NCBI GenBank assembly: GCA_902583715.1
Contig: CACHXC010000001.1
Location: 1 to 64,000 of the forward strand
From: an uncultured SAR116 cluster alpha proteobacterium
GTDB taxonomy: Bacteria; Pseudomonadota; Alphaproteobacteria; Puniceispirillales; Puniceispirillaceae
Reading direction: 5' to 3'
DNA: 64,000 nucleotides
A model generated the notes under the pieces. The model was not told the origin of the DNA. It searched no databases and worked only from the letters and a program-made list of their open reading frames with translations. Of this stretch, positions 60,517-64,000 are shown piece after piece (positions within the stretch are counted from its first letter, which is position 1; the number at the start of each line of letters is the position of its first letter). Position numbers and translations under genes: made by a program.

Positions 60517-60807
60517 ATGTCAAAAACGTTAACCAGAGCTGACCTTACCGAATCTGTCTATCGTAATATCGGGTTGTCCAGAAACGAATCTTCAGATCTT
60601 GTTGAGTCCGTTCTGGAAGAGATTTGCACCTGTCTTGAAGCAGGTGAAGAGGTCAAATTGTCGTCCTTTGGCACATTTTCTGTTCAGTCAAAACGCCAGC
60701 GCGTCGGGCGCAACCCAAAAACTGGTGTCGAAGCGGTGATTACCCCACGCCGGGTTTTATCATTTCGGCCTTCGCACATGCTAAAGGATCGGGTTGATAA
60801 CGCCTAA
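60517..60807 (+). CDS. ihfA: Integration host factor subunit alpha
   Basis: [60 protein letters not shown]. Confidence 0.93.
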
Positions 60808-61181
60808 TGACTGATAAATCTAGCGATGCCTTCAGAACCATCTCCGAAGTGTCAGCCGCGCTTGATGTGCCGCCGCATGTATTGCGTTTTTGGGAAACCA
60901 AATTTACCAGTTTGCGCCCATTGAAACGCAGTGGCGGCCGCCGTTATTATCGGCCTGGCGATATCGCTGTTTTAACGAGAATACGTGACTTGTTGTATAA
61001 AGACGGCTTTACCATAAAAGGCGCGCAACGGTTTTTAAAATCAAAAGAGGCACTGGTTCCGACAGACGCGGTGCATGATGCGGCTTTGGGCGGCAATGCG
61101 CCAGATCTTGCCGCGATCCAAGCGCTTTTAGAATCTGCGCGGGATCGGCTGGTGAGTGTAAAAAGCAAATTCCACCTGTAA
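60807..61181 (+). CDS. MerR family transcriptional regulator
   Basis: [49 protein letters not shown]-type overlap with ihfA. Confidence 0.92.
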
Positions 61182-61263: not shown

Positions 61264-61340
61264 CGGAGCGTAGCGCAGCCTGGTAGCGCACTATACTGGG
61301 GGTGTAGGGGTCGTGGGTTCAAATCCCGCCGCTCCGACCA
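61264..61340 (+). tRNA. tRNA-Pro (GGG)
   Basis: CGGAGCG/CGCTCCG acceptor; CTATA-CTGGGGG-TGTAG anticodon arm; CCA encoded. Confidence 0.94.
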
Positions 61341-61371
61341 ATGTTTTCAATAAGGTAGGATGCTTATGAAG

Positions 61372-61392
61372 TAGTCTTAAGGACTATTTTTT
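61372..61392 (+). terminator. Rho-independent terminator after tRNA-Pro
   Basis: TAGTC-TTAAG-GACTA followed by TTTTTT. Confidence 0.7.
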
Positions 61393-61395
61393 GTA

Positions 61396-61418
61396 TTCTC
61401 CGTCAATTTCTCCGTCAA
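61396..61418. repeat. Tandem 11-bp direct repeat TTCTCCGTCAA x2, 1-nt spacer
   Basis: 61396-61406 and 61408-61418 are identical. Confidence 0.8.
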
Positions 61419-61515
61419 ATTTTCTTGCAGAAAATGAAATTCGAGATAACCTCGCGGCAATGCCGTGCGCGGGCATTGTAAACTTTGTCGGTTGATTTAA
61501 AGAGTGCTAGCTGGA

Positions 61516-62904
61516 CTAAAGTAACTTCCGTATCCTCTCCAGCACAGTTTTGCCGACACCCGTTTTTAATAAAATTGTTTGCGAGTCAGCCGCTAGAAGG
61601 AGTTCAGGCGTTGGAAAATACATCAAAATTTTCTCTCGCCTTTTTTTGCCTAATCCAATCACAGATTGCAATTGAACCTCAAACTGTTTGGTCGAATCGT
61701 TTGCAGTTTCTCCAGCGATGAATTCGTTTTTGTCGGCTTCTGTTGTTATTTGTGGTTTTTTTGAGACAAGAAGTGGTAACCAAAAAATGCCTAAAAGGCT
61801 AACAATAAAAGGGTTAAGCGACCCATGCGTTGTTTTATTTTGACGCGCATAAATTCGGCTCAAGAGATAACCAACACAAACAGAAAAAATAATTGAAGAT
61901 GCCAATATTGATGGCCTTGAATATAACGTGAACTCGCTTTTATCACTAAGCAAAGCTTCAACCACAACAAGAGATAGCGTGAATGTTAGAACTAAAGCTG
62001 CAAATGAGATTGGTGCAAGGCAAAGTTTGGAAAATATGCTTAAGGAACTTCTCTTCACGTTCAGAAAAGTCATGAACGTAGCACCAAGAATGTTTGTTAT
62101 CCAACATACGATACCTACAGCGTTCAGAAAAAAATTGAGTTGTTCTGGGACTTCAGAACTAGGTGACCCAAGACTTTCGCTGACTGCCGATTGTTTTTGG
62201 TTCAACCCGGTAGCAAAAATATCAGTCAGTGCTGCGTTCAAATGATGTGAGAGACGTTCAAAAAAATCCGTAAGGTAAAGGCTTGGTTCTCCAATAAAGG
62301 CCCACAAACCTGATAACAAAAAAACAACGAATGCTGTCAGGGCTAAACCATTTAAAATGATGCTAGAGAATATAGTGCCAACAATTACCCCAATGACGGT
62401 TGGTTCAAGCCAATCAGTTGAAAAAATCCATGAGACACCGTAACCAAAACCACCAAGAACATGTGCTAAAGTTGCCCAAACGTAGGTGCCTGGGCCAGAA
62501 TTTGTTCCAAACGGAAGGAATAGAAAAAATGTCAGATAGCTGGCTAAAAATCCATAGAACCTATCACCACTAAACCAACCGACTGTAAGGCCAATCCCAA
62601 TAACCAAATATATGAAAATATTTGAATTGCTTTTTTCTTCTGCCTTTAGCCGCCCTTCTTTTGTTCTAAGGTCGTAGCCTCTCTCTTCCACCACACTTTT
62701 GTATTGTGAATTGCTGTAGCCTTTTTGACGCCATACAAAGCCAGTTCCAGGAATGCTGAGTGACCAACCGCGTGATGTGTTAAAATTTATTCTCGGCTTA
62801 CCTTTTTTGGAACCGGTCGTAAATGTCAGGGACCGAAGGCCTCCTTGAGTTACGTTCGCCTTGATATTTTTGCCACCAGGTCTTTTGCGCAGATAAAAGG
62901 GCAA
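61516..62904 (-). CDS. Membrane protein: N-terminal DUF4236-like segment, multiple TM helices, C-terminal UvrC-like double helix-hairpin-helix
   Basis: LPFYLRKRPGGKNIKANVTQGG...SRGWSLSIPGTGFVW; hydrophobic blocks; VIGLGKKRREKILMYFPTPELLLAADSQTILLKTGVGKTVLERIRKLL. TTG start at 62904 with AGGAAG SD proposed (ORF track start 63018). Confidence 0.68.
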   Translation of the reverse strand: MPFYLRKRPGGKNIKANVTQGGLRSLTFTTGSKKGKPRINFNTSRGWSLSIPGTGFVWRQKGYSNSQYKSVVEERGYDLRTKEGRLKAEEKSNSNIFIYLVIGIGLTVGWFSGDRFYGFLASYLTFFLFLPFGTNSGPGTYVWATLAHVLGGFGYGVSWIFSTDWLEPTVIGVIVGTIFSSIILNGLALTAFVVFLLSGLWAFIGEPSLYLTDFFERLSHHLNAALTDIFATGLNQKQSAVSESLGSPSSEVPEQLNFFLNAVGIVCWITNILGATFMTFLNVKRSSLSIFSKLCLAPISFAALVLTFTLSLVVVEALLSDKSEFTLYSRPSILASSIIFSVCVGYLLSRIYARQNKTTHGSLNPFIVSLLGIFWLPLLVSKKPQITTEADKNEFIAGETANDSTKQFEVQLQSVIGLGKKRREKILMYFPTPELLLAADSQTILLKTGVGKTVLERIRKLL

Positions 62905-62914
62905 ATTTTTCTTC

Positions 62915-63652
62915 CTAATTTGTTCGAAGCTGTTGGAGTGCCGTTGCTTCCAAATAGTTAATTTTATTTGTATCGATGTTGGATTTAACTTTGAGTTCGC
63001 TGTTCGGAAAAAAAGCATTACTGAAGGTAAAAAGCGCCTCCTCAGTCTGCATGCGGCTTAGTTTGAGGTGGTAAGCAACTTCATCCAAATAGGAAAGATA
63101 GTCAGCATATTTGACTGAGGGTTTAAGGCCCAAAAGCATCATCATCCGCGCATCCAAAATTGGAAAACCACCCCAAAACCTTAGGTGTTTAGACGCAAAC
63201 GATACTCCCAGTTGAGGAATTTGACAAAATTGTTGAATTGCTAAATCTGGCTTCTGACCGGTTGCTAACGAGACGCCTCTCTTATAGTCAAATATCCATT
63301 CATCGGAGTTTTGCCTTGCGCTTTCATTTTTTCTTTTGCCTAGAACATACGGGTTCCGTCCCATTATTCCGCCCCATACGTGAACTAGGTCGAAAACTCT
63401 GAGAGCAGTCAATGTCGCCTGTTGTCCGTCTGTCTGGTGATATTGTTTGATTGAAACCTGGATGCTCTCAATAAGCTCAGCACAGGTATTAAAAGATTGT
63501 CCGGGTAGGTAACCTTTGCCTTGGATTGTACTCAATGATTTTTGCATCGAGGAGTTGAGTGGGTGCTCTCCGTAAACCAAACTTTGTGCAAGCCAGAACT
63601 TAGCATCAAGATTTGACAATATGCCCAATCGTTTGGTTTCCATGCTATTCAA
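62915..63652 (-). CDS. Putative OGG-like (HhH-GPD-related) DNA glycosylase
   Basis: IPQLGVSFASKHLRFWGGFPILDARMMMLLG: candidate HhH lysine and downstream catalytic-type Asp. Confidence 0.55.
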   Translation of the reverse strand: MNSMETKRLGILSNLDAKFWLAQSLVYGEHPLNSSMQKSLSTIQGKGYLPGQSFNTCAELIESIQVSIKQYHQTDGQQATLTALRVFDLVHVWGGIMGRNPYVLGKRKNESARQNSDEWIFDYKRGVSLATGQKPDLAIQQFCQIPQLGVSFASKHLRFWGGFPILDARMMMLLGLKPSVKYADYLSYLDEVAYHLKLSRMQTEEALFTFSNAFFPNSELKVKSNIDTNKINYLEATALQQLRTN

Positions 63653-64000
63653 CCAGACTTTCTGCTTTGTAAGGTTTTTCTGAAGGTTTTGAGTTGAACC
63701 GGATAAAGCTTGTATCGACGTAACACTTCCTCTTTGGCGTCGGATGAAATGGCGTCATCGTACTCTTTTAGAACTTGTTTTCTAAAAGGGTCGTCAAATG
63801 TACGTTTTTTGCGTGTGATGTTTTGTACAACCCTTTTGTCCTCCAACAGCTTTCTCAGTAAATGGCCGATTTCATCTCTTTGCTCTGTGTCTATATCTGC
63901 AAGAACGTCAAGGTCCATGCGTGACAGAGTAATAAAATTGAGAATTGTCTGCATTGTGTCATCATCAATTTCTGAATTTGAACAGTTCTTCAGATTGATA
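63649..64000 (-). CDS. Hypothetical protein with C-terminal HTH-like segment, possibly the 3' part of a larger gene running off the window
   Basis: ORF overlaps the next gene by 4 nt; the frame stays open upstream of the ATG at 63954 to the window edge (INLKNCSNSEIDDDT-MQTILNF...). Confidence 0.5.
   Translation of the reverse strand, partial: INLKNCSNSEIDDDTMQTILNFITLSRMDLDVLADIDTEQRDEIGHLLRKLLEDKRVVQNITRKKRTFDDPFRKQVLKEYDDAISSDAKEEVLRRYKLYPVQLKTFRKTLQSRKSG

Follow-up and report, generated by a model that had tools for sequence, protein, structure and literature searches.

What is the AT-rich DNA that begins directly behind a tRNA-Pro gene in an apparently SAR116-type alphaproteobacterium, and what could the three minus-strand genes at its edge, one of them a putative DNA glycosylase, be doing there? 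The window that raised this question comprises the first 64,000 bases of a 226-kb contig from a 60%-complete, 1.49-Mb genome, and for the present analysis the sequence past 64,000 was read on to 100 kb of the contig. The original prediction, made within the window, saw in these genes an undescribed cassette in an island at the tRNA 3′ end, in which a lesion or modified-base sensor is paired with a membrane-tethered DNA-binding partner. Here we ask whether the trio is mobile, what its three proteins are, whether the association recurs elsewhere, and how well a role in defence fits the evidence.

The trio is cargo of an integrative element at tRNA-Pro(GGG)

The insertion site is well defined: a merR-type gene (60807–61181) directly precedes the tRNA-Pro(GGG) gene (61264–61340, plus strand; ARAGORN and BLAST of the own genome), and the att core is formed by the 3′ part of the tRNA, from position 61291 onwards. 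Base composition changes at this boundary as predicted, from 50.2% G+C at positions 1–61263 to 40.4% across the trio; the lowest value among 292 equal-sized segments of the host is 45.9%, so the trio lies below all of them. The island, its integrase and a repeat of the tRNA end had been anticipated, and the integrase, the exact att repeat and the arm sites were all located on reading past the window. The tRNA-Pro 3′ end is copied at contig 74162–74213 (52 bp, 100% identity by BLAST against the own genome), and just inside this right att copy lies the gene of a 426 aa tyrosine integrase (contig 72740–74020, minus strand) with a Phage_integrase domain over the family cut-off (PF00589, E=1.7e-9) and an Arm-DNA-bind_3 domain (E=1.9e-6). 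The element, which we call E1, thus spans contig 61341–74213 (12.9 kb), with the trio at its left end; positions 61341–64000 are the part that falls in the window, delimited by the att repeat, the integrase domains and the arm sites. An exact-word search found the 9-mer CTCCGTCAA four times in the 100 kb, at 61398, 61410, 74028 and 74040, that is, as a pair spaced 12 bp immediately within each end of E1. Judging from their position, the pairs are probably the expected arm sites of the E1 integrase, the left pair occupying 61398–61419 on the plus strand.

Since an integrase, an exact att repeat and arm sites confined to the ends are all present, the trio is E1 cargo and not part of the core genome: it is carried by a site-specific integrative element at tRNA-Pro(GGG). 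Comparison with relatives leads to the same conclusion. The glycosylase gene is present in one of the 136 genomes of the order, and in relatives this tRNA-Pro is followed by other cargo, so the alternative that the three are syntenic core genes was rejected. In a genome of the same genus, a 64%-identical integrase lies at the right att copy and is followed by an SDR core gene, the same one that follows the island here. The E1 integrase had no match in plasmids, phages or viral contigs. The other cargo of E1 comprises a redoxin/AhpC-TSA gene and a glyoxalase-family gene, both upstream of the trio, and, at contig 67003–70920, a row of genes for a proteasome-fold peptidase, a transglutaminase-like protein, an alpha-E protein and a circularly permuted ATP-grasp protein.

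As an element, E1 is of an ordinary tRNA-targeted kind. It resembles the tycheposon-like islands known from Methylophilaceae (PMC10872708) in its tRNA 3′-end target, its tyrosine recombinase, its variable cargo and its host, a marine bacterium with a small genome; it differs from them in targeting tRNA-Pro and in that integrase-less elements with common ends are stacked behind the autonomous one. These are three tandem tRNA-Pro-bounded segments (E2–E4, contig 74214–83957) of about 2.0, 4.6 and 3.1 kb whose cargo is unrelated, comprising a GAF protein, an NMT1-like ABC transporter and a CoA-transferase. No recombinase was recognised in E2–E4. They share 50–90 bp at the left end and about 100 bp at the right end with each other and not with E1, E2 has TTGTCTCCA repeats at either end and E3 has them at its right end, and the common end was found in no viral contig. 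E2–E4 have the look of non-autonomous cargo elements whose movement depends on an integrase encoded outside the island; three tyrosine recombinase genes are present elsewhere in this (incomplete) genome. Because the end repeats differ, the E1 integrase need not move E2–E4, and we rejected it as their necessary mover. Segments of 1.4–1.9 kb with no visible integrase also lie between copies of the tRNA-Pro 3′ end in SAR116 relatives (L073, L077 and L078: G080:C12:34570-36455, G101:C2:98848-100650 and G071:C29:757-2222), and small cargo segments at tRNA-Pro may therefore be common in the order.

The three proteins of the operon

The tight coupling of the three minus-strand genes was confirmed: the stop of the HTH gene at 63649 overlaps the glycosylase start at 63652 by 4 nt (TTGA), and the glycosylase stop ends at 62915, the TTG start of the third gene following 10 nt further on, at 62904. 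The first gene had been called HTH-like from its C-terminal half, the part inside the window (63649–64000, minus strand). The label holds for the C-terminus, and the full ORF, which runs past the window end (contig 63649–64389, minus strand; 246 aa), adds two transmembrane (TM) segments, both strong by hydropathy and close to the N-terminus. A helical stretch comes next, with the HTH at the C-terminus, and the protein is referred to below as the 2TM-HTH protein. With the full-length protein carrying two TM segments, two of the operon proteins, not one, are placed in the membrane. The HTH assignment draws on homologues as well, those at loci L090 and L116 matching HTH_Tnp_1 just under the Pfam cut-off (E=6.5e-4 and 1.5e-3, respectively). 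SLATT-type and PADLOC Mem_04 2TM proteins have the same layout, with a helical domain behind two N-terminal TM helices; the 2TM-HTH protein is distinguished from them by ending in a C-terminal Tnp_1-type HTH. Its own PADLOC matches are weak (Mem_04, E=0.01; RTasSLATT, E=0.042), and the L090 and L116 homologues had no PADLOC match. Searches of viral contigs, plasmids and phages returned nothing convincing for this protein. A class-wide profile search retrieved two proteins that have the N-terminal 2TM part alone; their genes lie next to stress-type genes, with no OGG-like gene, which identifies the 2TM part as a wider module. The 2TM-HTH gene has a good AGGAGG ribosome site, and just ahead of it, at contig 64423–64557, a 44-codon ORF for a small membrane peptide was read by eye, and the operon may start with this ORF.

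The middle gene (62915–63652, minus strand) encodes a 245 aa protein that we regard as a divergent OGG-like DNA glycosylase of the HhH-GPD type. Its match to the OGG family (PF21790; 18.4 bits, E=0.0019) is below the 27-bit family cut-off, and its identity to other OGG-like members is 16–22%. In an alignment of 18 OGG-like proteins that includes it, W93, G94, G149, K155, F159, I165 and D167 are invariant; K155 and D167, conserved in 18/18 sequences, correspond to the active-site Lys and Asp of HhH-GPD-type enzymes. The protein thus keeps the WGG motif, the HhH-like GxG..K segment and the downstream Asp of PF21790, but departs from the family in having neither the QW that follows the Asp nor the WR at the C-terminus, and in sharing its operon with the genes of two membrane proteins. 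When the family HMM was built with this protein left out, it gave the protein 11.5 bits, as compared to 5.3 for the best of 2000 shuffles; with the same HMM, the protein did not pass the HMMER default filters among 596 ORFs. The single-sequence AF2 model (pLDDT 39.6) is too poor for a meaningful fold search, a PDB profile search gave chance-level matches only, and direct searches of GTDB genomes, viral contigs, plasmids and phages found no close relatives. The OGG-like label of the original prediction is plausible: it is sub-threshold against Pfam, but the K155/D167 pair is invariant. Could the protein be unrelated, its motifs matching by chance? The low identity, the missing QW and WR and the sub-threshold scores all point that way, but the seven retained positions, the score above all 2000 shuffles and the location, the same as that of clear OGG-like genes next to 2TM-HTH homologues elsewhere (see below), leave this explanation little probability.

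The third gene (61516–62904, minus strand; 462 aa from the TTG start) encodes a protein with a DUF4236-like N-terminus, about seven TM segments and a C-terminal UvrC/XPF-like (HhH)2 segment, as judged by sub-region Pfam searches, hydropathy and weak XPF/UvrC matches. Both labels had been proposed before and remain plausible, if weak: HHH_5 matches at E=0.001 with the whole protein and, when the C-terminus is searched by itself, at 2.2e-5, which narrowly misses the cut-off; DUF4236 matches at E=0.018 with the N-terminus alone. The two-hairpin segment is similar to the (HhH)2 DNA-binding domains of UvrC and XPF; in contrast to these, it is fused to a multi-TM domain and a DUF4236-like N-terminus and comes without a nuclease domain. 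Among 387 genomes of the class the full-length protein is found in this genome only, and the same genomes, together with viral contigs and plasmids, otherwise yielded UvrC-like or DUF4236-like fragments. An HhH end for DNA binding on a membrane protein brings to mind ComEA-type DNA uptake and processing, in which the protein would import DNA for the glycosylase to clean. We rejected the protein as such an uptake receptor and consider this reading highly improbable: about seven TM segments with a UvrC/XPF-like HhH are not a single anchor, and no competence (com) genes were recognised among the annotated E1 genes.

Recurrence of the glycosylase and its partners

The co-occurrence of the trio that had been proposed is borne out in part. 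The whole trio was found nowhere else in the genomes searched, while the pair of glycosylase and 2TM-HTH genes recurs. The 2TM-HTH protein is encoded in two of the 136 genomes of the order, both times beside an OGG-like gene and in differing orientations. The second of these genomes belongs to another SAR116 family, and there the pair is adjacent on a 2.1-kb contig: a clear OGG-like gene (E=2.1e-14) lies 5 bp from the 2TM-HTH gene, the two being convergent. As the query used for this contig did not contain the OGG-like gene, the OGG-like neighbour is an independent match. At L116, on a contig whose Flavobacteriaceae label is that of its binning, a further homologue of the 2TM-HTH protein is encoded, which matches the one from the window at E=1e-24; here one gene, itself with an N-terminal HTH_Tnp_1, separates the OGG-like and 2TM-HTH genes. 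The orientation and order of the pair differ between loci, which argues for a functional link and against a copied block. A third SAR116 locus, L115, encodes in a row a Cas4-like PD-(D/E)XK nuclease, an OGG-like protein and an acidic HTH_Tnp_1 protein, with tyrosine recombinases nearby. At L115:6840-7337 and L116:2721-4430, the OGG-like genes have as neighbours acidic proteins (pI about 4.1) that carry HTH_Tnp_1 at the N-terminus and could possibly be regulators or DNA mimics. Relatives of the HhH protein were not found at any of these loci, and the HhH protein shows no recurrent association. The pairing of a glycosylase with a membrane-tethered DNA-binding partner thus stands, with the partner exchanged: the one that recurs is the 2TM-HTH protein, not the HhH protein.

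The OGG-like family as a whole is very sporadic, occurring in five of the 387 class genomes and in none of the viral contigs. An alignment-based scan gave 26 OGG-like loci, of which four had been met before under different locus identifiers, and 25 loci were examined. Type I restriction operons contain or adjoin the OGG-like gene at three of the 25 (L139, L133 and L111), at L139 with the gene between a CBS-domain gene and hsdR; DUF2779 or PD-(D/E)XK/Cas4-like nucleases are encoded near it at another three (L115, L113 and L123); and three integrase genes are located no more than three genes away from an OGG-like gene. Several of the 25 loci have plain metabolic surroundings. The link between the OGG-like family and restriction/nuclease genes is suggestive. 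At L139:246-6768 and L133:2854-9943, the OGG-like gene is part of the type I operon along with a CBS-domain gene between hsdS and hsdR. Our literature search found no paper naming the family, although a Pfam entry exists.

Possible roles: defence, repair or competition between elements

How might such a cassette work? From the sequences, we infer base excision, its substrate, the role of the membrane partner and a part in defence, as follows. A modified or damaged base, of the sort typical of phage DNA or of other foreign DNA, would be flipped out by the HhH-GPD-type glycosylase and excised by means of its Lys/Asp pair, leaving abasic sites at which replication would stop. Holding or sensing DNA at the inner membrane would fall to the 2TM-HTH protein, which joins a membrane domain to a transposase-type DNA-binding tail, and the multi-TM (HhH)2 protein may share this task here; the membrane partners would pass incoming DNA on to the glycosylase or, alternatively, serve as effectors once the glycosylase engages its target. 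That the cassette is a mobile DNA-surveillance or defence cargo module of E1 is a reading to which we give slightly less than even confidence. It draws support from the anatomy of E1, the sporadic presence, the recurrent pair, the invariant K155/D167 and the relatives in restriction operons, near Cas4-like or DUF2779 genes and in integrase elements. Counting against it, many OGG-like loci have metabolic surroundings, the window glycosylase is divergent and sub-threshold, and no association of the HhH protein recurs. The full and more specific version, an undescribed mobile, membrane-coupled base-excision defence that combines an HhH-GPD-type glycosylase for modified foreign DNA with a two-TM/transposase-type-HTH protein, the membrane (HhH)2 protein being optional, we consider somewhat unlikely. 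PADLOC gave no strong match for the three proteins. The expected proximity to known defence genes is not seen in E1, where the neighbours of the trio are the redoxin and metabolic-type genes; it is seen with those OGG-like relatives that sit in type I restriction operons or beside Cas4-like nucleases.

The main rival to defence is ordinary cargo for base excision repair under oxidative stress: an extra 8-oxoguanine-type glycosylase would aid survival in the surface ocean, with the membrane partners incidental or regulatory. The redoxin/AhpC-TSA and glyoxalase-family genes upstream on E1 are consistent with this, and it is from 8-oxoguanine glycosylases that OGG-like proteins take their name. 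A repair enzyme, however, would have no need of a recurrent membrane-anchored HTH partner, and neither the very sporadic distribution of the family nor its occasional location inside restriction operons is what this explanation would lead one to expect; we judge it unlikely. We hold it to be quite unlikely that the module, instead of targeting phages, serves competition between elements by acting at the membrane on other mobile DNA as it arrives, or controls E1 itself. Its carriage by an integrative element, the crowding of elements at this site and the recurrent HTH_Tnp_1 domains of the partners favour such a role, but the pair is also found away from E1, on elements and contigs where its neighbours are unrelated.

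Returning to defence by base excision, the closest parallel is provided by Brig1 and Brig3: according to the sections of the two papers drawn on here (PMC11078745, PMC13160076), Brig1 is structurally like uracil DNA glycosylases (UDGs) and Brig3 aligns closely with the Brig1 model. The similarity would lie in base removal from modified foreign DNA, yielding abasic sites, and in sporadic, island-borne genes. The OGG-like family is HhH-GPD-like as judged by PF21790, the one family matched by the window protein, and the same sections describe no membrane partner for Brig1 or Brig3, whereas the cassette has such partners. The OGG-like family may work like Brig1 and Brig3, but we do not claim its membership in the Brig group.

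The pairing of glycosylase and 2TM-HTH protein offers a concrete, clonable test case for the OGG-like family. If the defence reading is true, the family would constitute a second, HhH-GPD-type group of defence glycosylases beside the UDG-type Brig1 and Brig3, as these are presented in the sections cited. Base-excision immunity would then be widened to glycosylases that are membrane-wired, element-borne and located in restriction operons, and would reach the SAR116 marine bacteria.
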